Shown in pieces: positions 44,210-58,385 of a DNA stretch of 64,000 bases (position 1 is its first letter; the number at the start of each line of letters is the position of its first letter). The DNA is taken from NCBI RefSeq assembly GCF_003116585.1, contig NZ_QEHM01000009.1, positions 186,001-250,000 of the forward strand, in the 5' to 3' direction. This stretch comes from Albibacillus kandeliae. GTDB lineage: Bacteria > Pseudomonadota > Alphaproteobacteria > Rhodobacterales > Rhodobacteraceae. A program made the translations under genes and the position numbers. The notes below the pieces were generated by a model, which was not told the origin of the DNA, did no database searches, and was given only the letters and a program-made list of their open reading frames with translations.

Positions 44210-44609
44210 GGGAACTCTCGTTTGTGAATGTCGGGAACCGGGCTGGCTGGCCGTGGCTGCCGAAAACGCAGACGAGGCTAAGCTGGCGGGCATCTGGATC
44301 ATGCCATATTTATTGACAAATTTAGTCGGTTACTTCCCCCGGCACAAGCCGATTCACCCCTGCAACCCTCCGTCGCGCAGCTTCCGCCCTCCCGGTGCGC
44401 GTCCGGTGATCGCCCCGGCCCGGTGCGGCCCTTCGGCTGCCCACCGATGGGGCAGGACGGGCCGGGGGTGATCATTTCCGTAGCGTCAGGCGCCTCCCGG
44501 CCCGCTTATCCACACCGAGCGGCCCGCACGTCACAAAACTTTTGCGCAACCGACACAAAGCGGTGACCCAGCGCCCCTAGCGGTGGCGCCGGGACTTTTG
44601 GGGACGTCA
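44210..44609. promoter_or_regulatory. Divergent regulatory region hmuS / phnC
   Basis: 400 bp without a gene. The hmuS side has an AT-rich island (44300-44332) containing GAC-N7-GTC (44315-44327), which resembles palindromic iron-response sites. The phnC side has tandem TCACAAA (44531) and ACACAAA (44553), 22 bp apart, a weak match to a Pho box. No copy of the PhnF operator found before phnG is visible here. Both assignments are tentative. Confidence 0.4.
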
Positions 44610-45422
44610 ATGCTCGTAGTAGAAAACCTGACCAAGCGTTTCGGGGGCAATGTGGCCGTCGATAACGCCTCCTTCACCGTGGACCGCCCGATCATGCTCG
44701 GCATCATCGGACGCTCCGGCGCCGGCAAGTCGACGTTCCTGCGGATGATGAACCGCCTGACCGACGCGACCACCGGCAGCCTCAAGGTCGAGGGGCAGGA
44801 CGTGCTGCGGCTCACCGGCGCCGCCCGCCGCGAATGGCAGTCGCAATGCGCGATGATCTTCCAGCAGTTCAACCTGGTGCCGCGCATGGACGTGGTTTCG
44901 AACGTGCTGCACGGCACGCTGAACCGCCGCTCGACGCTGGCGACCATGTTCAACCTCTTCCCGCGCGAGGACATCCACCGCGCCATCGACATCCTCGACC
45001 GCCTCGGCATCGTCCAGCACGCCGCCAAGCGCGCCGAGGCGCTCTCGGGCGGCCAGCAGCAGCGCGTCGCCATCGCCCGCGCCCTGATGCAGGACCCCAA
45101 GGTCATCCTCGCCGATGAACCCATCGCCTCGCTCGATCCGATGAACGCCCAGATCGTCATGGACGCCCTGCGCCGGATTCACGACGAGGACGGCCGCATG
45201 GTCATCGCCAACCTCCACACGCTCGACACCGCGCGCCGCTACTGCGACCGGGTGATCGGCATGCGCGACGGGCGCATCGTCTTCGACGGCACGCCCGAGC
45301 AACTGACGACCGGCGTCGCCCGCGACATCTACGGCGCCGACGAAACCTTTTCCGAAGAGGCGACCTCGACGGAAATCCGCGATCACCGTGCCGCCCCCGT
45401 GCGCGCGGCGACGCCCGCCTGA
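44610..45422 (+). CDS. phnC: Phosphonate ABC transporter ATP-binding protein
   Basis: 270 residues. Walker [18 protein letters not shown] and [39 protein letters not shown] is the PhnC-specific stretch that separates it from other polar-compound ATPases. It powers import of phosphonates bound by PhnD. The frame begins at 44583, but the ATG at 44610 starts the conserved sequence. Confidence 0.95.
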
Positions 45423-45483
45423 TCACTCGAACCTGATCAACCCATCCTGATCTCAACCAGACCAAATCCAAACGGAGAGAGAC

Positions 45484-46383
45484 ATGAAAACCCTTATCGC
45501 TGCTGCTCTGGCGACCACTGCCCTGGTCGGCGCGGCTTCCGCCCAGGAGATTTCCGAATTCCGCCTCGGCATCCTCGGCGGCGAGAACGCCCAGGACCGC
45601 ATGACCTCGAACCAGTGCTTTGCCGACAAGATCGCCGAAGCTCTGGGCGTCGAGGTCAAGGTCTTCACCCCCGCCGACTACAACGGCGTGATGCAGGGCC
45701 TGCTGGGCGGCACCATCGACGCCGCATGGATGGGCGCCTCCTCCTACGCGGGCACCTATCTGGCCGATCCCGAAGCGGTCGAGCCGGTGCTGGTCAAGCA
45801 GAACATGGACGGCTCCATCGGCTACTACTCGATCGGTTTCGCCCGCAAGGACGCCGGCGTGACCTCGCTGGAAGACCTGAAGGGCAAGAAATTCGGCTTC
45901 GGTGACCCGAACTCGACCTCCGGCTACCTGATCCCCTCGATCGAAATTGCCGACGCCGGCTTCGACATGACCCCCGGCACCTTCTTCGGCGACGTCGTCT
46001 TCACCGGCGGCCACGAGCAGACCATCGTTGCCGTGAACAACGGTGACGTAGACGCCGGCGTGACCTGGGCCGACGGCCAGGGCAACTGGGAAGACGGCTA
46101 CAACTCGGGCGCCCTGCGCAAGGCAGTTGACGCCGGCCTCGTCGACATGAACGACCTGGTCCAGATCTGGCAGTCCAAGATCATCCCCGAAGGCCCGTTC
46201 GTTCTCCGCAAGGCCCTGCCGCAGGACGTCAAGGACAAGGTCACCACGCTGACCGCGAACCTGTGGGAAGAAGATCCGGATTGCGCCTACGGCGTTGCCG
46301 CCGGTGACGCGAAAGACTTCATCCCGGTGACCCACGCCGAGTACGAGTCGATCGTCGCCGCCCGTAAGTCCAAGAGCAACTAA
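45484..46383 (+). CDS. phnD: Phosphonate-binding periplasmic protein
   Basis: 299 residues. Signal peptide MKTLIAAALATTALVGAASA, then FRLGILGGENAQDRMTSNQ and GGTIDAAWMGASSYAGTYL, typical of PhnD. It binds alkyl- or aminoalkyl-phosphonates for PhnC/PhnE1/PhnE2. It is followed by a strong hairpin before phnE1, which would make the binding protein more abundant than the permeases. Confidence 0.95.
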   Translation: MKTLIAAALATTALVGAASAQEISEFRLGILGGENAQDRMTSNQCFADKIAEALGVEVKVFTPADYNGVMQGLLGGTIDAAWMGASSYAGTYLADPEAVEPVLVKQNMDGSIGYYSIGFARKDAGVTSLEDLKGKKFGFGDPNSTSGYLIPSIEIADAGFDMTPGTFFGDVVFTGGHEQTIVAVNNGDVDAGVTWADGQGNWEDGYNSGALRKAVDAGLVDMNDLVQIWQSKIIPEGPFVLRKALPQDVKDKVTTLTANLWEEDPDCAYGVAAGDAKDFIPVTHAEYESIVAARKSKSN

Positions 46384-46400
46384 GCCGCTCTGACCCCCAG

Positions 46401-46440
46401 CCGGGCTCCGCACTGCACCCGCGGAGCCCGGTGCCTTTTT
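46401..46440 (+). terminator. Attenuating hairpin between phnD and phnE1
   Basis: Perfect 11-bp stem (CCGGGCTCCGC at 46401, GCGGAGCCCGG at 46421-46431) with a 9-nt loop and a T5 run at 46436-46440. Partial termination after a binding-protein gene is common in ABC operons and would raise the PhnD to permease ratio. Confidence 0.75.
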
Positions 46441-46451
46441 ACGAGAACACG

Positions 46452-47312
46452 ATGGCCCTATCCCCCAGTCCCACGTCCGATCCGCACGGACACTACCTTG
46501 CGCTGGTCCAGCGCAAGCGGCTCTACGGCGGTCTCACCCTCGCCATTTTCGTTCTCATGATGGTCTCGGGCTTCATGCTCGCCGACTCGCGCAACGCCGG
46601 GGGCTTCTGGTCCGGCCTGCCGCAGATCTTCGACTTCCCGGCCGACGTGCTGGCCGACACCGCGACCAAGCTCCATCTCCTGCCCGAGCACCTGGTCCGC
46701 TATTTCCCCGCGCTGCTGGAGACGATCAACATCGCGGCCGCCTCGACCCTGATCGGCGCCGCCCTCGCACTGATCCTGTCGCTGCTCGCCACCCGCGGGC
46801 TGGCCCTCTGGCCGCGCGCCATTCCCGTCTTCCGCCGGATCATGGACATCATGCGCGCCGTCCCCGAGATCGTGATCGCGCTGGTGCTGATCTTCGTCCT
46901 CGGCGGCGGCCCGGTCCCGGCGATGATCGCCATCGCCTTCCACACCACCGGCGCGCTGGGCAAGCTGTTCTCCGAAGTGAACGAGAACGCCGACCTCAAG
47001 CCCGTTGAGGGGCTGACCTCGGTCGGCGCCAGCTGGCTGCAGCGCATGTGGCTCGGCGTGGTGCCGCAGGTTTCGCCCAACTACTTCAGCTACGCCCTGC
47101 TGCGCTTCGAGATCAACATCCGCGCCTCCGCCATCCTCGGCTTCGTCGGGGCAGGCGGCATCGGCTACGAACTCAAGAACGCCATGTCCTGGGGCAAGGG
47201 CCGCTTCGACGAGGCGGCAGCAATCTTCATCCTCCTGTTCCTGACCATCGTCGTCTTCGACCAGCTGTCGAGCCACGTGCGCGGGCGCCTGATCCACAAG
47301 GGAGGCCACTGA
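46452..47312 (+). CDS. phnE: Phosphonate ABC transporter permease (first)
   Basis: 286 residues; about six helices and the permease loop EVNENADLKPVEGLTSVGASWLQRM. The ATG at 46452 is used, since the GTG at 46431 lies inside the hairpin's 3' arm. It overlaps the second permease by one base. Phosphonate uptake as a heterodimer is expected. Confidence 0.93.
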   Translation: MALSPSPTSDPHGHYLALVQRKRLYGGLTLAIFVLMMVSGFMLADSRNAGGFWSGLPQIFDFPADVLADTATKLHLLPEHLVRYFPALLETINIAAASTLIGAALALILSLLATRGLALWPRAIPVFRRIMDIMRAVPEIVIALVLIFVLGGGPVPAMIAIAFHTTGALGKLFSEVNENADLKPVEGLTSVGASWLQRMWLGVVPQVSPNYFSYALLRFEINIRASAILGFVGAGGIGYELKNAMSWGKGRFDEAAAIFILLFLTIVVFDQLSSHVRGRLIHKGGH

Positions 47313-48619
47313 TGGCCGACGCCGCGATCTATCAACAGGCCGAGCGGCTGTTCCTCGGCAAGCGCATCATGGCCTTCGGGCTGCCGCTGCTGGTGCTGGC
47401 CTATCTTGGCTACATCTTCTTCGCCTTCGACCTGCCGGGCCTCGCCCAGCGCGCGCGCTGGGATCACGCCCAGACCCTGCTGTCGGATACCTACAGCTAC
47501 AAGACCCACGTGACCCGCGACAACCGCACCGGCGAGGTCGCCGCCGCCATCGAGGGCGAGCGCAAGGGCCAATATCCCGGCAACACCGTGCCGGGCTGGG
47601 TCACGCGCGAGGGCGACGAGACCCGCGTCGACCTCGGCCGCGGCAACGTGGTCGAGTTCCTGCCGGGCAACGGCCTGCGCTACGACGTTCCGGGCTTCGG
47701 CCCGATCGAGGCCCGCGTCGAGGGCCGCGAGATCGTCACCAACCTCGGCGCCGACGTGCCCGACTGGATCTCGGTCTCGGGCACCCGCCTCGCCATCACC
47801 ACTGAGGCAGGCCGCGTCTCGCTGACCCGCAGCCGCACCGAGGTCTTCCGCTACTTCTTAGGCTGGGAGCTCTTCTTCTTCACCCTCGACAGCCCCTATC
47901 ACGGCCACTCGCTCCCCGAGATACTCTTCGGCGCGCAGATCGACCCGGCCCGCTCGAACCTCGCGGGCGCCTGGCACGACTTCTGGAAGAACGACATGTG
48001 GCACCACGCCGACGTGGCCTGGGCCCTGTTCGAGACCGTGCTGATGGCCTTCCTCGGCACCTTCGGCGCCGCCATCGTGGCGCTGCCGGTGGCTTTCCTC
48101 GCGGCCCGGAACTTCACCCCGCTCGGCCCGCTGCGCTTCGCCATGCGCCGCATGTTCGACTTCCTGCGCGGCGTCGACGGGCTGATCTGGACCATCGTGC
48201 TGTCCCGTGCCTTCGGGCCCGGCCCCCTGACCGGCTCGCTGGCGATCCTGCTGACCGACACCGGCAGCTTCGGCAAGATGTTCTCCGAGGCGCTCGAGAA
48301 CGTCGATCGCAAGCAGATCGAGGGCGTCAGTTCGACCGGCGCCAATGCCGCGCAGCGCTACCGCTTCGGGGTGATCCCGCAGATCATGCCGGTACTGCTG
48401 AGCCAGGTGCTCTACTTCCTCGAATCCAACACCCGCAGCGCGACGATCATCGGCGCCATCACCGGCGGCGGCATCGGCCTGCTGCTGACCCAGGCCATGA
48501 TCACCCAGAAGGACTGGGAAGAAGTCACCTATTACATCATCCTCGTTGTGCTGATGGTCATGGTGATGGACAGTGTCTCGGGCTGGCTGCGCCGCCGCCT
48601 GATCCAGGGCGACGCCTGA
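47312..48619 (+). CDS. phnE: Phosphonate ABC transporter permease (second) with large N-terminal insert
   Basis: 435 residues. The C-terminal part (about 240-430) is the usual permease with EALENVDRKQIEGVSSTGANAAQRYRFGVIPQI. Between the first helix (about 20-43) and that part is an extra soluble region of about 150 residues, beta-rich and polar, probably periplasmic. Such long second PhnE proteins occur in several alphaproteobacteria from memory; the insert's role is unknown. Confidence 0.9.
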   Translation: MADAAIYQQAERLFLGKRIMAFGLPLLVLAYLGYIFFAFDLPGLAQRARWDHAQTLLSDTYSYKTHVTRDNRTGEVAAAIEGERKGQYPGNTVPGWVTREGDETRVDLGRGNVVEFLPGNGLRYDVPGFGPIEARVEGREIVTNLGADVPDWISVSGTRLAITTEAGRVSLTRSRTEVFRYFLGWELFFFTLDSPYHGHSLPEILFGAQIDPARSNLAGAWHDFWKNDMWHHADVAWALFETVLMAFLGTFGAAIVALPVAFLAARNFTPLGPLRFAMRRMFDFLRGVDGLIWTIVLSRAFGPGPLTGSLAILLTDTGSFGKMFSEALENVDRKQIEGVSSTGANAAQRYRFGVIPQIMPVLLSQVLYFLESNTRSATIIGAITGGGIGLLLTQAMITQKDWEEVTYYIILVVLMVMVMDSVSGWLRRRLIQGDA

Positions 48620-48635
48620 ATACCCGGAGACCCGA

Positions 48636-49250
48636 ATGACACAACTGACACCCGACAGCCCGGTCATCGAACCGGGCTGTGACATCACCGACTCGACCTT
48701 CGGCCGCTACTGCGAGATCAAGCAGGGCACCCGCGTGGCCTTCTCGAGCTTTGGCGACTACTCCTACTGCGACCGCTCCTGTGACATCGCCAACGCGACC
48801 ATCGGCAAGTTCGCCAATATCGCCAGCTTCGTGCGGATCGGCGCCACCGACCACCCGCTCGACCGCGCCAGCCTGCACCACTTCATGTACCGCTCGGACA
48901 TGTACTGGGAGGACGCAGAACCCGACGCCGCCTTCTTCGAGCACCGCCGCTCGCGCCGCGCCAGCATCGGGCACGACACCTGGCTGGGCCATGCCACGAT
49001 GATCAAGCCCGAGGTCACCATCGGCCACGGCGCCGTCGTGGCGTCCGGCGCGGTGGTGACAAAGGACGTCGCCCCCTACACCATCGTCGCGGGCACCCCG
49101 GCCAGGGTCATGCGCCTGCGCCAGCCGCCCGAGATCGCCGAACGCCTGATGGACCTCGCCTGGTGGGACTGGAGCCACGAGGCGATCCGCGCCAGCCTCG
49201 GCGATTTCCGCAGCCTCACGGCCGAAGCCTTCCTCGAAAAATACGCCTGA
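48636..49250 (+). CDS. Left-handed beta-helix acyltransferase of the phosphonate locus
   Basis: 204 residues with hexapeptide repeats (FGDYSYCDRSCDIANATIGKFANIASF, IGHDTWLGHATMIKPEVTIGHGAVVASGAVVTKDV). The C-terminal YTIVAGTPARVMR is typical of xenobiotic-acetyltransferase-like LbH enzymes. A family of this type is regularly encoded with C-P lyase genes (TIGR03308-like) and may acylate an aminoalkylphosphonate. It sits 16 bp after phnE2. Confidence 0.85.
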   Translation: MTQLTPDSPVIEPGCDITDSTFGRYCEIKQGTRVAFSSFGDYSYCDRSCDIANATIGKFANIASFVRIGATDHPLDRASLHHFMYRSDMYWEDAEPDAAFFEHRRSRRASIGHDTWLGHATMIKPEVTIGHGAVVASGAVVTKDVAPYTIVAGTPARVMRLRQPPEIAERLMDLAWWDWSHEAIRASLGDFRSLTAEAFLEKYA

Positions 49251-49372: not shown

Positions 49373-50089
49373 TCAGCTGTCCTCGCTGCTCACCGTCAGG
49401 GTGACGCGGTCGCCGGCGAACCAGGTCAGGCCGTATTCCACCGGGGTGCCGTCCAGTTCGGTGTTGATGCCGACGGTCTTCAGCAGCGGGTCGCCCTCGC
49501 GCAGGCGCAGGTGCAAGGCCTGGGTGGCGCTGGCGCGCTCGGCAGTGAGCCGGGTCTCGGCCCGGACGTAGTCGGGCACGCCGTTCAGCCGCAGCGCCTC
49601 GGTGACCGAGGGGGTTTCGGCCAGCGTGGCGGGCAGGCCGGGCAGGCGGGGCTCGGGAAAGATGCTCTGGAAATGGGCGATGGGGGTGGCATTGGCCAGC
49701 GACAGCCCCTCGTAGACCACCACCGGGGTGCCGGGTTTCAGGCCCAGCGCCTTGCACTCGGTGGCATCGCCCGGGCGCACCTCGACGCGCAGCACCTGTT
49801 TCTGCGGCAGTCGTCCGGTGGCGCGCACGTTCTGGTGAAAGCGGACGCGGCGGCCGATGGGGTAGTCGGCGGGGGGCGCCTCGACAAAGACCCCGGCGCC
49901 TCGGCGCGAACGCAGGATGCCGCGCTCGGACATGTCGGCGAGGGCGCGGCGCACGGTGTGGCGGTTGACGCCGAAGCGCGCGGAGAGCGCGGATTCGGTC
50001 GGCAGCTTGTCGCCGGGGCCGTAATGGCCGGCGGCGATATCCCGCTCCAGCGTGTTCGCGATTTCCTTCCAGACCGGGGTTCGGGTCAT
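49373..50089 (-). CDS. phnF: GntR/HutC-family phosphonate repressor
   Basis: 238 residues. N-terminal winged helix (YGPGDKLPTESALSARFGVNRHTVRRALADMSERGILRSRRGAGVF), then an UTRA effector-binding domain (residues about 85-235). It is divergent from phnG with the operator between them, and is expected to repress the C-P lyase operon until a phosphonate-related effector appears. Confidence 0.93.
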   Translation of the reverse strand: MTRTPVWKEIANTLERDIAAGHYGPGDKLPTESALSARFGVNRHTVRRALADMSERGILRSRRGAGVFVEAPPADYPIGRRVRFHQNVRATGRLPQKQVLRVEVRPGDATECKALGLKPGTPVVVYEGLSLANATPIAHFQSIFPEPRLPGLPATLAETPSVTEALRLNGVPDYVRAETRLTAERASATQALHLRLREGDPLLKTVGINTELDGTPVEYGLTWFAGDRVTLTVSSEDS

Positions 50090-50193: not shown

Positions 50194-50649
50194 ATGACCA
50201 TCCAGACGACAGAGACCGAGGCCCGCCGGGCCTGGATGGGCCTGCTGGCCAAGGCGGCCCCGGCGCGGCTCGACGCGCTGCTGGGCGAGGTCGGCGACCT
50301 GCCCGACTTCACCTGGCTCCGCCGTCCCGAGGCGGGCGGCGTGATGGTGCGCGGCCGCATGGGCGGCACCGGCCAGCCCTTCAACCTCGGCGAGATGACG
50401 GTGACCCGCTGCGCCCTGCAGATCGCGGGCGGCGCGGTCGGCCATGCCTACGTGCAGGGCCGCGACAAGCGTCATGCGGAACAGGCGGCGCTGGTCGATG
50501 CGCTGATGCAGACCGAGCGCGCGAGCGACCTGCGCCGGACCGTGCTCGACAGGCTGGCCGCCGAACGCGCGGCCCGGGCCGAGGGACGCGCCGCCAAGGC
50601 TGCGGCGACCAGGGTCGATTTCTTTACCATGGTGCGGGGAGAGGACTGA
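50194..50649 (+). CDS. phnG: C-P lyase subunit PhnG
   Basis: 151 residues. Component of the PhnGHIJ core that breaks the C-P bond. WMGLLAKAAPARLDALLGEVGDLPDFTWLRRPEAGGVMVRGRMGGTGQPFNLGEMTVTRC is diagnostic of PhnG. It is first in the catabolic operon and overlaps phnH by one base. Confidence 0.95.
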   Translation: MTIQTTETEARRAWMGLLAKAAPARLDALLGEVGDLPDFTWLRRPEAGGVMVRGRMGGTGQPFNLGEMTVTRCALQIAGGAVGHAYVQGRDKRHAEQAALVDALMQTERASDLRRTVLDRLAAERAARAEGRAAKAAATRVDFFTMVRGED

Positions 50650-51218
50650 TGCAGACCGAAGCACTGACCGGCGGGTTCGCCAATCCGCCCGTAGAGGCCT
50701 CCCGCGGGTTCCGCGCGGCGCTCAACGCGCTGGCCCGGCCCGGCACCATCGAGACCGTCGCGGGGGCAGGGGCCCCGGCGCCGGTCTCCACCGCGGCGGC
50801 GGTTCTGCTGCTCACGCTCTGTGACGCGGAGACGCCGCTCTACCTCGCGCCCGGACATGACGGGCAGGCGGTCCGCGACTGGATCGCCTTCCACATCGGC
50901 GCCCCCATCGCCGATGCGGGCGAGGCCATGTTCGCCCTCGGCACCTGGGAGGCGCTGCAACCGCTGGCGCCCTTCCGCGCCGGGACGTCGGAATACCCCG
51001 ACCGGTCGGTCACTCTGTTCGTCGAGATGGAGGGGCTGGAGCAGAAGGGCGCGCGCCTGACCGGCCCCGGCATCCGCGAGGCGGCGCACCTGTCGTTGCC
51101 CGAGATCGCGGCCTTCCAGGCCAACCGCGCCGCCTTCCCGCTGGGGCGTGATTTCTATTTCTGCGCCGGAGACCGCCTTGCCGGTCTGCCGCGCTCGACC
51201 ATGGTGGAGGCGGGCTGA
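50649..51218 (+). CDS. phnH: C-P lyase subunit PhnH
   Basis: 189 residues. GFANPPVEASRGFRAALNALARPGTIETVAG is the PhnH opening. It is a structural component of the core complex. It overlaps phnG and phnI by one base each (TGATG), a tightly coupled arrangement. Confidence 0.95.
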   Translation: MQTEALTGGFANPPVEASRGFRAALNALARPGTIETVAGAGAPAPVSTAAAVLLLTLCDAETPLYLAPGHDGQAVRDWIAFHIGAPIADAGEAMFALGTWEALQPLAPFRAGTSEYPDRSVTLFVEMEGLEQKGARLTGPGIREAAHLSLPEIAAFQANRAAFPLGRDFYFCAGDRLAGLPRSTMVEAG

Positions 51219-52303
51219 TGTATGTAGCCGTCAAGGGTGGCGAACGCGCCATCGACAATGCCCACAGCTGGCTCGCCGAGGAGCGGCGCGGCGATACTGA
51301 TATCGCCGAGCTCTCCATCGCGCAGATCCGTGAACAGCTCTCCATTGCCGTGAACCGGGTGATGGCCGAGGGCTCGCTCTACGACCCCGACCTCGCGGCG
51401 CTGGCGATCAAGCAGGCGCGCGGCGACATGATCGAGGCGATCTTCCTGATCCGCGCCTATCGCACCACGCTGCCCCGCATCGGCCACTCCAAACCGGTCG
51501 ATACCGGCGCGATGGCCTGCGACCGCCGCATCTCGGCCACCTTCAAGGACGCGCCGGGCGGGCAGGTGCTGGGGCCGACCTTCGACTACACCCACCGCCT
51601 GCTCGATTTCAAACTGGCGGCCGAGGGCGAGCTTCCCGAGACCCCGAAGGACGCGCCGCTGAAAGGCGACATGCCCCGGATCACCGAGTTCCTCAACCGC
51701 GACGGGCTGATCCAGTCCGAGGACCGTGGCGACGAGACCCCGCCCGACATGACCCGCCAGCCGATGGAATACCCCGCCAACCGCGCCCTGCGCCTGCAGG
51801 CGCTCACCCGCGGCGACGAGGGGTTCGTGCTCGCGATGGCCTATTCCACCCAGCGCGGCTATGCCAAGAACCACCCCTTCGTGGGCGAGCTGCGCATCGG
51901 CACGGTCGGGGTCGAGATGGACATCCCCGAGCTCGGCTTCTCGGTCGAGATCGGCGAGCTGACCCTCAGCGAATGCGAGACGGTCAACCAGTTCACCGGC
52001 TCCAAGACCGAGCCGCCGCAGTTCACCCGCGGCTATGGCCTCGTCTTCGGCCAGAGCGAGCGCAAGGCGATCTCGATGGCCCTCGTCGACCGGGCCCTGC
52101 GCTGGGAGGAACTCGGCGAGGACAACAAGGGCGCCCCGGCGCAGGACGAGGAATTCGTGCTGTCCCACGCCGACAACATCCAGGCCAGCGGGTTCCTCGA
52201 ACACATCAAGCTGCCCCATTACGTCGACTTCCAGTCCGAACTGGAGCTGGTGCGCAAGATCCGCGCCGAGGCGATGGGTGCCCATAGGGAGGCCGCGGAA
52301 TGA
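51218..52303 (+). CDS. phnI: C-P lyase subunit PhnI
   Basis: 361 residues. It couples the phosphonate to the ribose of ATP by displacing adenine, giving the alpha-D-ribose 1-phosphonate triphosphate intermediate with PhnG/H/L. YVAVKGGERAIDNAHSWL is the PhnI start; FVLSHADNIQASGFLEHIKLPHYVDFQSELELVR closes it. It overlaps the HAD gene by 4 bp. Confidence 0.96.
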   Translation: MYVAVKGGERAIDNAHSWLAEERRGDTDIAELSIAQIREQLSIAVNRVMAEGSLYDPDLAALAIKQARGDMIEAIFLIRAYRTTLPRIGHSKPVDTGAMACDRRISATFKDAPGGQVLGPTFDYTHRLLDFKLAAEGELPETPKDAPLKGDMPRITEFLNRDGLIQSEDRGDETPPDMTRQPMEYPANRALRLQALTRGDEGFVLAMAYSTQRGYAKNHPFVGELRIGTVGVEMDIPELGFSVEIGELTLSECETVNQFTGSKTEPPQFTRGYGLVFGQSERKAISMALVDRALRWEELGEDNKGAPAQDEEFVLSHADNIQASGFLEHIKLPHYVDFQSELELVRKIRAEAMGAHREAAE

Positions 52304-52896
52304 AGGCCGTCGTCTTCGACATCGGGCAGGTTCTGGTCCGCTGGGATCCGCATCTCGCCTACCTCGATGCACTCGGCAGCCGCGAGGCCGCCGCCGCCTT
52401 CCTCGAACGGGTCGACTTCCCGGCACGCAACCTGCGCGCCGACGGGGGCGAGACCTTCACGGACATCGCGACCGAGATCGACGACCCCGAGGATGCCGCG
52501 CTCTTCACCGCCTACCTCGACCGCTATCACCTCACGGTGCCGGAGAAGATCGAAGGAACCTGGGCTCTGATGGAGCGCCTGCGGGGGCGCGGGCTGGAAA
52601 TCCACGCGATCACCAACTGGTCGGCCGAAACCTGGCCCGCCGGGGTGGCCGCGCACCCGGAACTCGGGCGGGCCTTCGGTGTCACTGTCGTCTCGGGACA
52701 GGAGAAGATGCTTAAACCCGACCCGCGCATCTTCGCGCTGCTCTGCGAGCGTGCCGGGCTGCTGCCGCAGGACTGCGTCTTTGTCGATGACAGTCTCAAG
52801 AACGTTGCCGGGGCGCTCGGCTCCGGCATGGACGCGATCCATTTCACTTCGCCCGAGGCGCTGGAACAGGCGCTGACGGAAAGGGGGCTGCTATGA
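52300..52896 (+). CDS. HAD-superfamily hydrolase embedded between phnI and phnJ
   Basis: 198 residues. Nucleophile Asp7 in VVFDIGQVLVRWDP, motif II AITNWSAETW, motif III Lys in EKMLKPDPRIF, motif IV CVFVDDSLKNV. Asp+2 is Gly, as in the YihX sugar-phosphatase branch. It overlaps phnI and phnJ by 4 bp each, so it must be made with the core complex. Since phnP is absent locally, a sugar-phosphate phosphatase role in the pathway is plausible but unproven. Confidence 0.88.
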   Translation: MKAVVFDIGQVLVRWDPHLAYLDALGSREAAAAFLERVDFPARNLRADGGETFTDIATEIDDPEDAALFTAYLDRYHLTVPEKIEGTWALMERLRGRGLEIHAITNWSAETWPAGVAAHPELGRAFGVTVVSGQEKMLKPDPRIFALLCERAGLLPQDCVFVDDSLKNVAGALGSGMDAIHFTSPEALEQALTERGLL

Positions 52897-53762
52897 GCGA
52901 CTACAACTTCGCCTACCTCGACGAACAGACCAAGCGGATGATCCGCCGCGCCATCCTCAAGGGCGTCGCGGTGCCGGGCTACCAGGTCCCCTTCGCCAGC
53001 CGCGAGATGCCTATGCCCTATGGCTGGGGCACCGGCGGGGTTCAGGTATCGGCGGCCTGCCTCACGCCCGAGGATACGCTCAAGGTGATCGACCAGGGCG
53101 CCGACGACACCACCAACGCCGTCTCGATCCGCAAGTTCTTCGAGAAGACCGCCGAGGTGGCGACGACCGAACACACGGGCGAGGCGACGGTGATCCAGAC
53201 CCGCCACCGCATCCCCGAAGAGCCCCTGACCGAGGATCAGATCCTCGTCTATCAGGTGCCGATCCCGGAGCCGCTGCGCTTCCTCGAACCGCGCGAGACC
53301 GAAACCCGCAAGATGCACGCGCTCGAGGAATACGGCCTCATGCACGTCAAGCTCTACGAGGACATCTCGCGCCACGGCGAGATCGCGACCTCCTACGCCT
53401 ACCCGGTCAAGGTCGAGGGGCGCTACGTGATGGACCCGTCGCCGATCCCCAAGTTCGACAACCCGAAACTCGAAATGGCCGCAATCCAGCTCTTCGGGGC
53501 AGGGCGCGAACAGCGCATCTACGCCATCCCGCCCTACACGCAGGTGGTGAGCCTCGATTTCGAGGACTACCCCTTCGTCGCCTCCAAGGCGAACCACGCC
53601 TGCGCGCTCTGCGGGGCGGGGGACACCTACCTCGACGAGGTGATCGTCGATGACGAGGGCGGCCGCATGTATGTGTGCTCCGACACCGACTACTGCTCGG
53701 GCCGTCAGGACAAGGGCCATCGCGGCGAGATGGCCGCGCCCTACATGGAGGTCGCGGAATGA
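52893..53762 (+). CDS. phnJ: C-P lyase catalytic subunit PhnJ
   Basis: 289 residues. Radical-SAM enzyme that cleaves the C-P bond to release alkane and ribosyl cyclic phosphate. The unusual cluster ligands Cys237, Cys240 and Cys262 and the catalytic Cys268 have the spacing 3-22-6 found in the E. coli enzyme. NHACALCGAGDTYLDEVIVDD and CSDTDYCSGR are visible. It ends in an ATGA overlap with a 24-codon frame. Confidence 0.97.
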   Translation: MSDYNFAYLDEQTKRMIRRAILKGVAVPGYQVPFASREMPMPYGWGTGGVQVSAACLTPEDTLKVIDQGADDTTNAVSIRKFFEKTAEVATTEHTGEATVIQTRHRIPEEPLTEDQILVYQVPIPEPLRFLEPRETETRKMHALEEYGLMHVKLYEDISRHGEIATSYAYPVKVEGRYVMDPSPIPKFDNPKLEMAAIQLFGAGREQRIYAIPPYTQVVSLDFEDYPFVASKANHACALCGAGDTYLDEVIVDDEGGRMYVCSDTDYCSGRQDKGHRGEMAAPYMEVAE

Positions 53763-53833
53763 GTGACGCAAGCCAAATCCGGCTGCTGCAGGTCACTCGC
53801 ACTCCGGTGACCGGCCCGGGACCTGTGGCATGA
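53759..53833 (+). CDS. 24-codon frame linking phnJ to a VOC gene
   Basis: An ATG at 53759 overlaps the phnJ stop (ATGA). The frame ends in a TGA that overlaps the VOC ATG at 53830 (ATGA again), giving 24 residues (MSDASQIRLLQ...). No similarity is recognised. It may be the scar of the displaced original start of the gene that followed phnJ, or a leader peptide coupling translation. Confidence 0.35.
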   Translation: MSDASQIRLLQVTRTPVTGPGPVA

Positions 53834-54228
53834 CCGATCTTCAGGGCATCGACCACCTCGGCCTGACCGTCTCCGACCTGCAGGCATCGCTGGGGTTCTT
53901 CACGGATGCGCTCGGCTGGGAACAGACTGGCGGCAATCCGTCCTACCCGGCGGCCTATGTCACCAACGGGCAGGCCAGGATCACTCTCTGGCAACAGAAG
54001 GGCGACCACCGGCGCGGGTTCGACCGGCACACGAATGTCGGTCTGCACCACTTCGCCCTCAGGGTTGCCAGCCAAGAAGCGCTCGATCGCCTGTTCGAAC
54101 GTGTTCAGGACTGGCCGGGCGTCGAGGTCGAGTTCGCGCCCGAGTTCTCCGGAACCGGGCCCAAGGTCCACTTCATGATCAGCGAACCGGGCGGGACCCG
54201 GATGGAATTCAGCTATGACCCAAGATAA
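53830..54228 (+). CDS. VOC family protein embedded between phnJ and phnK
   Basis: 132 residues. Glyoxalase/dioxygenase fold (DHLGLTVSDLQASLGFFTDALGW; HHFALRVASQEALDRLFERVQ; GTRMEFSYD). It ends 14 bp inside phnK. It is not part of the known C-P lyase. It may act on a phosphonate-derived aldehyde or serve a detoxification role, but its specificity is unreadable. Confidence 0.85.
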   Translation: MTDLQGIDHLGLTVSDLQASLGFFTDALGWEQTGGNPSYPAAYVTNGQARITLWQQKGDHRRGFDRHTNVGLHHFALRVASQEALDRLFERVQDWPGVEVEFAPEFSGTGPKVHFMISEPGGTRMEFSYDPR

Positions 54229-54994
54229 TCCGCTCCTCTCTGTCCGCGACATCGAAAAGCGCTACGGCGCCCGGATCGGCTGCACCGACGTCTCCTTCGA
54301 TCTCTGGCCCGGCGAGGTCATGGGCATCGTGGGTGAATCCGGCTCGGGCAAGTCCACGCTGCTGAACTGCCTCGCGGGACACATCGCCCCCGACGGCGGC
54401 CGCATCCTGTTCGACACACGCGCCGAGGGTCTGAAGGACACCGCGCAGATGTCCGAACCCGAACGCCGGATGCTCTCGCGCACCGACTGGGCCTTTGTCC
54501 ACCAGAACGCCCGCGACGGCCTGCGGATGAGCGTCAGCGCGGGCGGCAACGTGGGCGAGCGGCTGATGGCCGTGGGCGCGCGTCACTACGGCGACATCCG
54601 CGATCAGGCCACCGACTGGCTCGGCCGGGTCGAGATCGCCGCCGACCGCATCGACGACCGCCCCACCGCCTTCTCGGGCGGGATGCAGCAGCGCCTCCAG
54701 ATCGCGCGCAACCTCGTCACCGGCCCGCGCCTCGTCTTCATGGACGAGCCGACCGGCGGCCTCGACGTCTCGGTGCAGGCCCGCCTGCTCGACCTGCTGC
54801 GCGGCCTCGTGCGCGAGATGGGCCTCTCGGCCATCATCGTGACCCACGACCTCGCGGTGGTGCGGCTGCTGGCGGACCGGCTGATGGTGATGAAATCGGG
54901 TCGCGTGGTCGAAACCGGCCTGACCGATCAGGTCCTCGACGATCCGCAACACGCCTATACCCAGCTTCTCGTTTCCTCGGTACTTCAGGTCTGA
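54215..54994 (+). CDS. phnK: C-P lyase ATP-binding subunit PhnK
   Basis: 259 residues. ABC-type domain (GESGSGKST, FSGGMQQR, LVFMDEPTGGLDV) that binds PhnJ in the core complex. LSVRDIEKRYGARIGCTDVSFDLWPGEVMGIVGESGSG and QHAYTQLLVSSVLQV match PhnK. Overlaps the VOC gene by 14 bp. Confidence 0.95.
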   Translation: MTQDNPLLSVRDIEKRYGARIGCTDVSFDLWPGEVMGIVGESGSGKSTLLNCLAGHIAPDGGRILFDTRAEGLKDTAQMSEPERRMLSRTDWAFVHQNARDGLRMSVSAGGNVGERLMAVGARHYGDIRDQATDWLGRVEIAADRIDDRPTAFSGGMQQRLQIARNLVTGPRLVFMDEPTGGLDVSVQARLLDLLRGLVREMGLSAIIVTHDLAVVRLLADRLMVMKSGRVVETGLTDQVLDDPQHAYTQLLVSSVLQV

Positions 54995-55021
54995 CTGACG
55001 GAAATCGAGGAGGACCTTCGC

Positions 55022-55981
55022 ATGATCTACAGCTACGCCCCGGGTGAACACGGCCTGGTCCGGACAGAGGGCCTCGATCCCTCTGCGCTGTGGTTCGAGC
55101 TGTTCCAGCCCAGCGTGCCGGAACGCAAGAAGGCCTCCGAGATGGTCGGCTACCAGTTGCCCAGCCTCGAGGTGCAGGAAGAGATCGAGCACAGCTCGCG
55201 CTTCTACGTCGAGAAGGACGCGCCGGTGATGACCCTGCTCGTCCCGGTGCGCCAGACCGATGGCACGATGCGGTCCTCGCCCGTGACCTTCCTGCTGACG
55301 GCGACGCAGCTGGTGACCATCCGCCATCAGGCGCACGGGGCCTTCGCGACCTACCTCGAGAACGCCTCGCGCGCCTCGAACGGGGTCGCCACGCCCGCGC
55401 GGGTCCTGCTGGGACTGCTGGGCGCGATCATCGACCGCGTGGCCGACGCGACCGAGCAGATCGGGCGTGACATCGAGGTGCTGATGCATTCGGCCTTCCG
55501 CGATGACAAGGACGCCGCGCAGACCCTCGACCAGAAGACCCGCCTGCGCCAGATCGGTCGCTACGACACCGTGGTCATGAGCCTTCGCGAAAGCCTCGTC
55601 CTGATGGAGCGGATGCTGGAGTTCCTCGCGGCCTTCCTCGCCGAGACGCGGGGCAAGGACGACGCGCGCCGCACCATGAAGAGCCTTCAGCGCGACGTGC
55701 GCGCGATCCGCGAACAGACGAACTTCCTCAGCCAGAAGACCGCGCTGCTGCTCGATGCGACGCTCGGCATGATCGAGATCGAGCAGAGCCACATCGTCAA
55801 GATCTTCTCGGTCGTCGCGGCGCTGTTCCTGCCGCCGACGCTGATCGCGTCGATCTACGGAATGAACTTCGAACACATGGATATCCTCGCATGGCGCTGG
55901 GGCTATCCTTTCATGTTGGTCCTGATGCTGCTGTCGGCGGTGGTGCCGCTCTGGTGGTTCAGACGCAAGGGCTGGCTCTAG
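55022..55981 (+). CDS. CorA-family divalent cation transporter embedded between phnK and phnL
   Basis: 319 residues. Two C-terminal helices with the family signature GMN at 280-282 (IYGMNF), long coiled helical stalk in the middle (REQTNFLSQKTALLLDATLGMIEIEQSHIVKIFSVVAALFLPPTLIAS). It imports Mg2+ or Co2+. GAGGAGG Shine-Dalgarno precedes it; no overlap with phnK or phnL. C-P lyase needs ATP-Mg and the locus is thus supplied with an ion channel, though this link is inference. Confidence 0.88.
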   Translation: MIYSYAPGEHGLVRTEGLDPSALWFELFQPSVPERKKASEMVGYQLPSLEVQEEIEHSSRFYVEKDAPVMTLLVPVRQTDGTMRSSPVTFLLTATQLVTIRHQAHGAFATYLENASRASNGVATPARVLLGLLGAIIDRVADATEQIGRDIEVLMHSAFRDDKDAAQTLDQKTRLRQIGRYDTVVMSLRESLVLMERMLEFLAAFLAETRGKDDARRTMKSLQRDVRAIREQTNFLSQKTALLLDATLGMIEIEQSHIVKIFSVVAALFLPPTLIASIYGMNFEHMDILAWRWGYPFMLVLMLLSAVVPLWWFRRKGWL

Positions 55982-55998: not shown

Positions 55999-56679
55999 AT
56001 GATCGATATCCAGAACGTCAGCAAGAGTTTCACCCTGCACAATCAGGGCGGCGCCGAGATCCCGGTGATGGCAGGTGCCACGCTGCGCGTCGCCCCCGGG
56101 GAATGCGTGGCGCTCACCGGCAGTTCCGGCGCGGGCAAGTCCACGCTGATGCGGATGATCTACGGCAACTACCTTGCCGCCTCGGGGCGCATCCTCGTCG
56201 GCGACACCGACGTTGCCCGCGCCGAGCCGCGCCAGATCGTCCGGCTGCGGCGCGAGACGCTGGGCTATGTCAGCCAGTTCCTGCGGGTGGTCCCGCGCGT
56301 CGCCACCGTCGACATCGTCGCCGAACCGCTCCTCGCACTCGGCACGCCCCGCGACGAGGCCCGCGCCCGGGCCGAGCACCTGCTGCAACGCCTCAACATC
56401 CCCGAGACGCTGTGGTCGCTCTCGCCCACCACCTTCTCGGGCGGCGAACAGCAGCGGGTCAACATCGCGCGCGGCTTTGCCTACCGCTATCCCGCGCTGC
56501 TGCTGGACGAGCCGACGGCCAGCCTCGACGCGGGCAACCGGGCCACGGTGCTCGACCTGATCGACGAGGCCAAGGCGGCGGGGGCCGCGATCATCGGCAT
56601 CTTCCACGACCTCGAAGCGCGCGAGCGGGTCGCCGACCGCGAGGTCGATGTCTCGCAGTTCACCCCAAGGCTCGCGTGA
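55999..56679 (+). CDS. phnL: C-P lyase ATP-binding subunit PhnL
   Basis: 226 residues. ABC-type subunit working with PhnI in the nucleophilic step. [26 protein letters not shown] and LLLDEPTASLDAGNR are intact. Its stop codon overlaps the phnN start. Confidence 0.95.
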   Translation: MIDIQNVSKSFTLHNQGGAEIPVMAGATLRVAPGECVALTGSSGAGKSTLMRMIYGNYLAASGRILVGDTDVARAEPRQIVRLRRETLGYVSQFLRVVPRVATVDIVAEPLLALGTPRDEARARAEHLLQRLNIPETLWSLSPTTFSGGEQQRVNIARGFAYRYPALLLDEPTASLDAGNRATVLDLIDEAKAAGAAIIGIFHDLEARERVADREVDVSQFTPRLA

Positions 56680-57221
56680 TGGCCGGCCGCCTCTTTGCCG
56701 TGGTCGGCCCCTCCGGGGTCGGGAAGGACACGCTGATGACGGCGGCCCGTCAGGCGCGGCCCGGCCTGACGCTGGTGCGCCGTGTCATCACCCGCCCCGC
56801 CGAGGCAGGCGGCGAGGATTTCGAGAGCGTGACGCCGCAGGTCTTCGAGGCGCGCCTCAGGAACGGCGATTTCGTGCTGCACTGGCAGGCCCACGGCCTG
56901 TCCTACGGCATCCCCAAGGGCGTGCACTCGGTCCTCGCCTCGGGCCGCGACGCCCTGTTCAACGGCTCGCGCGCCATGCTGGACGAGGCCGCGCGGGCCT
57001 TCCCGGGCCTCCACGTCCTGCACATCACCGCGAAACCCGAGGTGCTGGCCGAACGCCTCGCCGCCCGGGGCCGCGAGACTCCCGACGAGATCAGGCGCCG
57101 GCTCGCCCGCGCGCCCCTGCCGCTGCCCGAAGGGCTGTCGGTCATCGAAATAGACAATTCCGACCCGGTCGAGCAGACACTCCCCCGTCTGCTGGCCGCG
57201 CTCGATTCCGAAAAGGTGTGA
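56679..57221 (+). CDS. phnN: Ribose 1,5-bisphosphate phosphokinase
   Basis: 180 residues. P-loop kinase (AVVGPSGVGKDTLM; RVITRPAEAGGEDFESV). Converts ribose 1,5-bisphosphate to PRPP, recycling the ribosyl part of the C-P lyase product. It overlaps phnL by one base. Confidence 0.94.
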   Translation: MAGRLFAVVGPSGVGKDTLMTAARQARPGLTLVRRVITRPAEAGGEDFESVTPQVFEARLRNGDFVLHWQAHGLSYGIPKGVHSVLASGRDALFNGSRAMLDEAARAFPGLHVLHITAKPEVLAERLAARGRETPDEIRRRLARAPLPLPEGLSVIEIDNSDPVEQTLPRLLAALDSEKV

Positions 57222-57224
57222 CCC

Positions 57225-58385
57225 ATGCAGATGAGATTTGAAACCGGCGAGACCATTCTCACCAACGCGCGCCTCGTGCTGCCCGGCGAGGTGGTGCAGG
57301 GCACCCTTCGCATCCGCGACGGACGCATCACCTCGATCGACCAGACCGGGTCGATGGCCCCCGGCGCCATCGACTGCGGCGGCGACCTGCTGATCCCCGG
57401 GCTGATCGAGCTGCACACCGACAACCTCGAACGCCACATCCAGCCGCGCCCCAAGGTCGACTGGCCCCACGCGGCGGCCATCCTCGCCCATGACGGCGAA
57501 CTGGCCAGCACCGGCATCACCACCGTCTTCGATGCCATGCGCGTCGGGTCGGTCACCACCAACCCGCGCACCGACTACCGCGAGTATGCCCGTTCGCTGG
57601 CCTCGGAACTGCTGGAGGTCCGGGCGAAGGGGATGCTGCGCATCAGCCACTTCCTGCACCTGCGCGCCGAGATCTGCTCGGAAACCCTGATCGACGAACT
57701 GGCCAAGTTCAGCAGCGAGGACCGCGTCGGGATTGTCTCGCTGATGGACCACACCCCGGGCCAGCGCCAGTTCCGCGACCTCTCCAAGCTCAAGGACTAC
57801 GTCTGCGGCAAGCACGGCCTCTCGGAGGAGCAGTTCGCCGACCACGTGGCCGAACAGCAGGAACGCCGCGCCCGGCTGGGCGAGGCGCACGAGGCAGCGG
57901 CCGTCGCGGCCGCCGCGACCTTCGGCGCAGTGCTGGCCAGCCATGACGACACCACCGCCGATCACGTCGCGGTCAGCGCCGCCCACGGCATTCGTCTGGC
58001 CGAGTTCCCGACCACCGTCGAGGCGGCGCAGGCCTGCCACGACCACGGCATCGCCGTGATGATGGGCGCGCCCAACCTGATCCGGGGCGGGTCGCACTCG
58101 GGCAACGTCGCCGCCGAGGACCTCGCCCGCGCCGACCTGCTCGACATCCTGTCGTCCGACTACGTGCCGTCCTCGCTGCTGCTGGCGGCCTTCCGCCTCG
58201 CCCGCATCTGGGACGATATCCCGCGCGGCATCGCCACGGTCACCTCCGCCCCCGCCGCGGCAACCGGGCTTCAGGACCGGGGCCGTATCGAAGAGGGGCT
58301 TCTGGCCGACCTCGTGCGGGTGACCGAGCTGGACAGCGGCCCGGTGGTCCGGGGCGTCTGGTCGCACGGTCGGCAGGTCGGCTGA
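57225..58385 (+). CDS. phnM: Alpha-D-ribose 1-methylphosphonate 5-triphosphate diphosphatase
   Basis: 386 residues. Amidohydrolase-fold metalloenzyme removing pyrophosphate from the ribosyl-phosphonate triphosphate before PhnJ acts. PGLIELHTDNLERHIQPRPKVDW is its hallmark metal motif; SSDYVPSSLLLAAFRLA follows near the C-terminus. It is last in the operon, 3 bp after phnN. Confidence 0.95.
   Translation: MQMRFETGETILTNARLVLPGEVVQGTLRIRDGRITSIDQTGSMAPGAIDCGGDLLIPGLIELHTDNLERHIQPRPKVDWPHAAAILAHDGELASTGITTVFDAMRVGSVTTNPRTDYREYARSLASELLEVRAKGMLRISHFLHLRAEICSETLIDELAKFSSEDRVGIVSLMDHTPGQRQFRDLSKLKDYVCGKHGLSEEQFADHVAEQQERRARLGEAHEAAAVAAAATFGAVLASHDDTTADHVAVSAAHGIRLAEFPTTVEAAQACHDHGIAVMMGAPNLIRGGSHSGNVAAEDLARADLLDILSSDYVPSSLLLAAFRLARIWDDIPRGIATVTSAPAAATGLQDRGRIEEGLLADLVRVTELDSGPVVRGVWSHGRQVG

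Follow-up and report, generated by a model that had tools for sequence, protein, structure and literature searches.

A predicted CorA-family cation channel gene recurs between phnK and phnL in C-P lyase operons of Rhodobacteraceae

The stretch of DNA analyzed here, referred to as the window, comprises 64,000 nucleotides of the Albibacillus kandeliae genome and contains a complete C-P lyase region, in which an intact corA reading frame lies between phnK and phnL (Table 1). The presence of a CorA-type gene at this place had been proposed in an earlier note made from the letters alone, and both the coordinates and the profile matches of the three genes (PF01544, TIGR02323, and TIGR02324) agree with it. 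The region opens with phnC, phnD, and two phnE genes, followed by a hexapeptide transferase gene (48636-49250; TIGR03308, 304 bits) and a divergent phnF, after which phnG, phnH, phnI, a HAD gene, phnJ, a VOC gene, phnK, corA, phnL, phnN, and phnM follow in the same direction; the names phnC to phnE, phnF, and phnG to phnI are those that we take to apply. The HAD and VOC genes, which the earlier note had singled out as further accessory genes, are both real (PF00702 and PF00903, respectively). A gap of 27 nt separates the phnK stop codon from corA and one of 17 nt separates corA from the ATG of phnL, and the strong Shine-Dalgarno sequence ascribed to corA corresponds to a Shine-Dalgarno-like GAGGAGG run just 5' of its ATG. 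The absence of overlaps, also pointed out previously, does set corA apart from the phnG/phnH, phnH/phnI, phnI/HAD, HAD/phnJ, VOC/phnK, and phnL/phnN junctions, where the genes overlap or abut, but the contrast is not absolute, as 67 nt lie between phnJ and the VOC gene. From the spacing we infer that corA is likely to be translated from the phn message together with phnK and phnL.

Table 1. Features of the C-P lyase region, in window coordinates
Feature	Position	Strand	Basis
phnC, phnD, phnE, phnE and hexapeptide transferase	44583..49250	+	transporter genes: ORF and conserved position
phnF-type GntR regulator	49373..50089	-	ORF; conserved divergent position
phnG, phnH, phnI	50194..52303	+	end-overlapping ORFs; same-order homologues by similarity in related operons
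HAD hydrolase, phnI/phnJ junction	52300..52896	+	PF00702
phnJ, C-P lyase radical SAM subunit	52893..53762	+	PF06007, 480 bits
VOC/glyoxalase-superfamily gene, phnJ/phnK junction	53830..54228	+	PF00903
phnK, left neighbor of corA	54215..54994	+	TIGR02323, 388 bits, above cut-off
Shine-Dalgarno-like GAGGAGG region, upstream of corA	55006..55014	+	sequence reading
corA, CorA-family divalent cation channel (predicted)	55022..55981	+	319 aa, ATG start, PF01544
phnL, right neighbor of corA	55999..56679	+	TIGR02324, 319 bits, above cut-off
phnN and phnM	56679..58385	+	phnM: NF011984, 558 bits; phnN: position and similarity to phnL neighbors in related operons

Judged by its sequence and predicted fold, the product of the window gene is almost certainly a member of the CorA family. 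PF01544 matches residues 22-315 with an E-value of 5.3e-45 (154.4 bits, cut-off 27), two hydrophobic segments span residues 256-282 and 292-315, and a GMN motif is found at residues 280-282, which is invariant both in the 27 family CorAs encoded between phnK and phnL (hereafter slot CorAs) and in the 59 sequences of a larger alignment. The sequence relatives in the PDB are CorA channels, the best being that of Thermotoga maritima (2.3e-19). Prediction from the single sequence was poor (pLDDT 56.5), hence an AlphaFold2 model was built from the 59 sequences (mean pLDDT 91.5), for which the top Foldseek matches are CorA structures, with the E. coli cytosolic domain first, a best E-value of 8.5e-16, and TM-scores of up to 0.77 by query length. 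The identity of the transported ion is uncertain, because the score of 171.8 bits lies below the 200.75-bit cut-off of the Mg/Co CorA equivalog TIGR00383; the cut-off of the ZntB zinc transporter profile NF007092 is likewise not reached (30 vs. 292 bits). The missed equivalog cut-off would suit a channel that admits Mn2+, Co2+, Ni2+, or Zn2+, rather than Mg2+, for the late metal-dependent enzymes of the pathway (PhnM and the PHP phosphoesterase), and passage of Co2+ and Ni2+ is known for CorA relatives. However, the GMN motif is retained together with the aspartate position that we take to be the pore residue (24 D, 2 E, and 1 G among the 27 slot CorAs), and the best structural matches are Mg2+ CorAs, which argues against this reading (see also below).

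How often CorA lies inside phn operons, a count that the earlier note had proposed, was determined for 295 genomes of the Rhodobacteraceae, one per genus. The window CorA has a match in 109 of these genomes, and 81 matches with at least 120 bits were kept, the weaker ones being left out, while PhnJ was found in 147 genomes (with positions listed for 143). A third of the strong matches (27/81, the window included) are on the phnJ strand and 0.8-1.5 kb downstream of that gene, all of them in the order phnK-corA-phnL and with intact reading frames, so that the arrangement is seen in 27 of the 147 PhnJ-bearing genera of the family. This position is far above chance, since every phnJ-near CorA of the family (27/27) occupies the same junction. 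The other 54 strong matches are located away from phnJ, 24 in genomes with PhnJ and 30 in genomes without a listed PhnJ position, one of which (G074) has PhnJ at an unlisted position and a CorA locus (L099) that shows no phn core gene. Outside the family, no CorA was found near phnJ in 98 PhnJ-bearing genomes (sets of 61 and 37, with coordinates compared by eye), where CorA matches are present in 48/61 and 36/37 genomes and come no closer to phnJ than ~32 kb. A profile scan of named genomes returned 80 CorA loci, of which 12 have phnK-corA-phnL and 4 have part of it; after removal of a chimeric locus (L305) and a duplicate (L282, the same gene as L080), and addition of a locus whose contig begins inside phnK and which was counted as a slot case (L291), 11 new cases result. 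The new carriers include Frigidibacter oleivorans, Mameliella sediminis, Tritonibacter horizontis, and one Sediminimonas MAG. In the same scan, none of 37 Hyphomicrobiales CorA loci has a phn context, and the same is true of the plasmid copies in the annotated contexts H1 and H5. The excluded locus L305 shows phnK-CorA-phnL in a "Gammaproteobacteria" MAG; its contig is probably chimeric, as its CorA is 99.7% identical to that of L085 and its PhnL merges into another ABC protein. For a known type of gene, the phnK-phnL slot is a new setting, which is recurrent, limited to the family, and probably functional.

The state of the junction without CorA was assessed in 100 operons, fetched from the 116 listed PhnJ genomes that lack CorA near phnJ. 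Both phnK and phnL were seen in 98 of these, with a median gap of 14 nt and with 95 gaps of at most 111 nt; the junction is therefore normally closed, and CorA is its usual occupant when it is open. Wider gaps occur in L195 (369 nt), L222 (465 nt), and L248 (317 nt), and no convincing CorA remnant was found in these three (best tblastn E-value 0.002 over 34 residues). The gap in L222 contains a short frame that by eye resembles an acetyltransferase.

A tree of the 81 same-family CorAs, built with a quick method and with SH-aLRT support only, has a fully supported split into clade A (29 sequences, 6 of them slot CorAs, including that of the window) and clade B (52 sequences, 21 slot CorAs), and a single clade for all slot CorAs is rejected (AU p 2e-54). 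The slot CorAs hence derive from at least two CorA lineages. Their junctions also differ in spacing: the gap between phnK and corA is 13-55 nt in all six clade A cases, and it ranges from -1 to 7 nt throughout the 21 of clade B, where corA often overlaps or abuts the start of phnL; among the 26 fetched loci the gap between corA and phnL has a median of 5 nt, with seven at -4. Two lineages with distinct junctions point to repeated recruitment or to exchange in situ. In a larger FastTree tree, which is quick and has a weak base, Hyphomicrobiales CorAs fall on the A side only, and the Sediminimonas slot CorA is separate from the group of the window, which would make a third recruitment possible.

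A tree of 125 operons was built from PhnI, PhnJ, PhnK, and PhnL, on which the presence of CorA requires 22 changes, at least 10 of them forced by starred branches, compared to a mean of 24.7 for shuffled labels (38 of 500 shuffles as low as 22), and the nearest sister operons of the window, namely L209 (88% identity), L214, and L215, have no CorA. CorA is therefore gained and lost often, since the distribution is hardly better than shuffled and the closest operons are without it. The clean exchange of the gene would be accounted for by recombination across the phnK and phnL flanks that the operons share. Such scatter, together with the clean junctions of CorA-less operons and the many CorA relatives at other places, could also be expected if an ordinary CorA had landed between phnK and phnL as cargo of little or no benefit, which homologous recombination across the flanks would add and remove, with no specific tie to phosphonates. 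That cargo from at least two lineages should reach the same junction, that almost no other gene should occupy it in the 98 CorA-less operons, that all slot reading frames should be intact, and that CorAs outside the operon should still adjoin TIGR03223/DUF1045, PhnM, or PHP genes speaks against this explanation, which we regard as rather unlikely.

Among same-family sequences, the six closest to the window CorA are five copies from the phnK-phnL junction and one that adjoins TIGR03223/DUF1045. The 54 strong matches away from phnJ, two of which are overlapping views of one tandem pair, were inspected with 5.5 kb flanks: TIGR03223/DUF1045, PhnM, or a CehA/McbA-type PHP metallohydrolase lies near 11 of them (10/31 loci of clade B and 1/23 of clade A, the latter, L089, in the subclade of the window), and no phn-type neighbor was seen at 43. 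The earlier note had held that close relatives located elsewhere with no phn link would speak against its proposal, and this is found in part, as most strong matches are not near phnJ and the sister operons lack the gene, whereas five of the six closest relatives occupy the slot. In two genomes (G241 and G034) DUF1045 is missing from the stretch with the phn operon, and CorA and DUF1045 are found together elsewhere (L104 with L266, and L131 with L193), while in a third (G273) nothing was seen past phnN in the operon stretch and CorA-DUF1045-PhnM-PHP is encoded on another contig (L116 and L265). In Tropicimonas (L303) the order is CorA-phnN-DUF1045-phnM, and at L293 a PhnM-like gene and DUF1045 flank CorA, an arrangement that resembles a deletion remnant. 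As remnants of operon loss could yield such neighbors without any function, adjacency outside the operon is only moderate evidence. At L115, L116, and L140, which are not part of a phnGHIJKL operon, CorA is accompanied by convergent DUF1045 and PhnM genes, and at L115 and L116 also by PHP; the genomes G040 and G124 gave no PhnJ match. On a conjugative plasmid of Sulfitobacter faviae (L274; NZ_CP116426.1, 6777-11443), corA precedes genes for a calcium/sodium antiporter and for a PhoD-like alkaline phosphatase, a further case of CorA in the vicinity of phosphorus genes.

The neighbors outside the operon bear on two further readings. Genes kept beside CorA outside the operon include PHP and PhnM (L108, L111, L115, L116, L125, L127, L135, and L140), which would suit a transition-metal channel, but the operon of the window has neither PHP nor DUF1045, and with the conserved pore and Mg2+-type structural matches such a channel is improbable. 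Alternatively, CorA could be a membrane partner of the ABC-type ATPases PhnK and PhnL, through which the C-P lyase complex would become membrane-associated, given that the gene lies exactly between both ATPase genes in 27/27 family cases. This is very improbable, as CorA is also found beside phn genes without adjoining PhnK or PhnL (L303, L115, L116, and L140), the fold is that of a standard CorA channel, and adjacency of genes is not contact of proteins.

The genome of the window (5.48 Mb, 30 contigs) encodes two PF01544 proteins, the second on a different contig, while in 21 of the 26 other slot genomes the slot CorA is the sole PF01544 protein; MgtE is present in 25 of the 27 slot genomes, that of the window included. 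Being usually the single CorA of genomes that almost all have MgtE, the slot CorA is accessory rather than housekeeping. It is absent beside phnJ in 120 of the 147 PhnJ-bearing genera, which indicates that C-P lyase works without it, and the CorA-less sister operons likewise indicate that it is not essential. Matches to a Pho box in the window occur at chance level only.

The same slot is filled in many relatives and from at least two branches, and for this reason CorA and phosphonate functions are probably linked; with the adjacency to phosphonate genes outside the operon, the functional tie to the phn system that the earlier note had envisaged gains support, and on this genomic basis we consider it highly probable. 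The explanation that we favor, at about even confidence, is that a canonical CorA channel entered the phn operons in more than one event, as an optional accessory, and would most likely admit Mg2+ during the assimilation of phosphonate phosphorus. Phosphonate use consumes Mg-ATP and yields triphosphate, PPi, and Pi, the ATP pool is refilled, and ATP binds Mg2+. CorA would accordingly admit Mg2+, and perhaps also Mn2+ or Co2+, while phosphonate-derived phosphate is assimilated: the demand may stem from a pathway that uses Mg-ATP, passes through triphosphate and PPi intermediates, and ends in metal-dependent phosphoesterases, and the refilled ATP pool would bind further Mg2+. CorA would not be a subunit required for cleavage of the C-P bond. 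A link of phosphate assimilation to cytoplasmic Mg2+ was reportedly described in Salmonella by Bruna et al. in 2021. Mg2+ supply as the reason for the presence of CorA in the phn operon falls slightly short of an even chance. A stronger proposal, which we consider doubtful, is that of a dedicated ion channel of the phosphonate pathway, in which two (possibly three) CorA lineages convergently joined C-P lyase and act with PhnM, the rcsF-type DUF1045 protein, and PHP, so that metal entry is coupled to phosphorus release. C-P lyase operons provide marine and freshwater bacteria with a main route for the use of phosphonates and for methane release in oxygenated water, and if the channel is dedicated, Mg or another metal would be a direct control point of both phosphonate use and aerobic methane release. 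Repeated CorA recruitment into a single junction suggests that phosphonate use has a metal requirement, and natural strain pairs that differ in the gene exist, since operons that are otherwise alike may have it or lack it.

The C-P lyase operon described for Rhodobacterales (Sosa et al., 2017; PMC5649143) shares phnGHIJKLMN, phnF, the hexapeptide transferase, and phnCDE with the window according to the accessible part of that paper, where phnM1, rcsF, and a transferase are given as the extra genes of Rhodobacteraceae phn operons and corA is not named; the window adds the HAD, VOC, and CorA genes. In many family operons (L063-L088 and related loci) a divergent second PhnM-like gene lies on the opposite strand beside phnF, which is probably the phnM1 of PMC5649143 and was not seen in the operon of the window. 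The HAD gene is a common optional gene of the family operons (28/100 CorA-less and 4/27 CorA-bearing loci), hence HAD, VOC, and CorA need not form one package. A VOC gene between phnJ and phnK was found in none of 126 other family operon loci; at the Tritonibacter horizontis locus (L302) a VOC gene with 69.5% identity is in the same place, and the window copy overlaps the start of phnK. In the literature searched, which included few subscription papers and was seen in part (PMC9381506, PMC10574752, PMC10734472, PMC5649143, and PMC12226003), CorA inside a phn operon is not reported, and a membrane cation channel has so far not been counted among the parts of C-P lyase operons. A close parallel in behavior is rcsF, a 2H-phosphodiesterase gene of phn operons without phnP (PMC10574752, section 5.3), to which TIGR03223 (DUF1045) would correspond: like CorA, it is optional and accessory in phn operons and moves along with them, as well as with CorA itself, and the TIGR03223 copy in the genome of the window is located on another contig. 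In contrast to CorA, its product is a soluble enzyme that is proposed to replace PhnP. With the CorA family of E. coli, T. maritima, and M. jannaschii, the window CorA has the domain, the GMN motif, the two C-terminal membrane helices, and the fold in common, but it differs from these in scoring under the TIGR00383 cut-off and in being encoded inside a phosphonate operon, and slot CorAs are usually the sole CorA beside MgtE.
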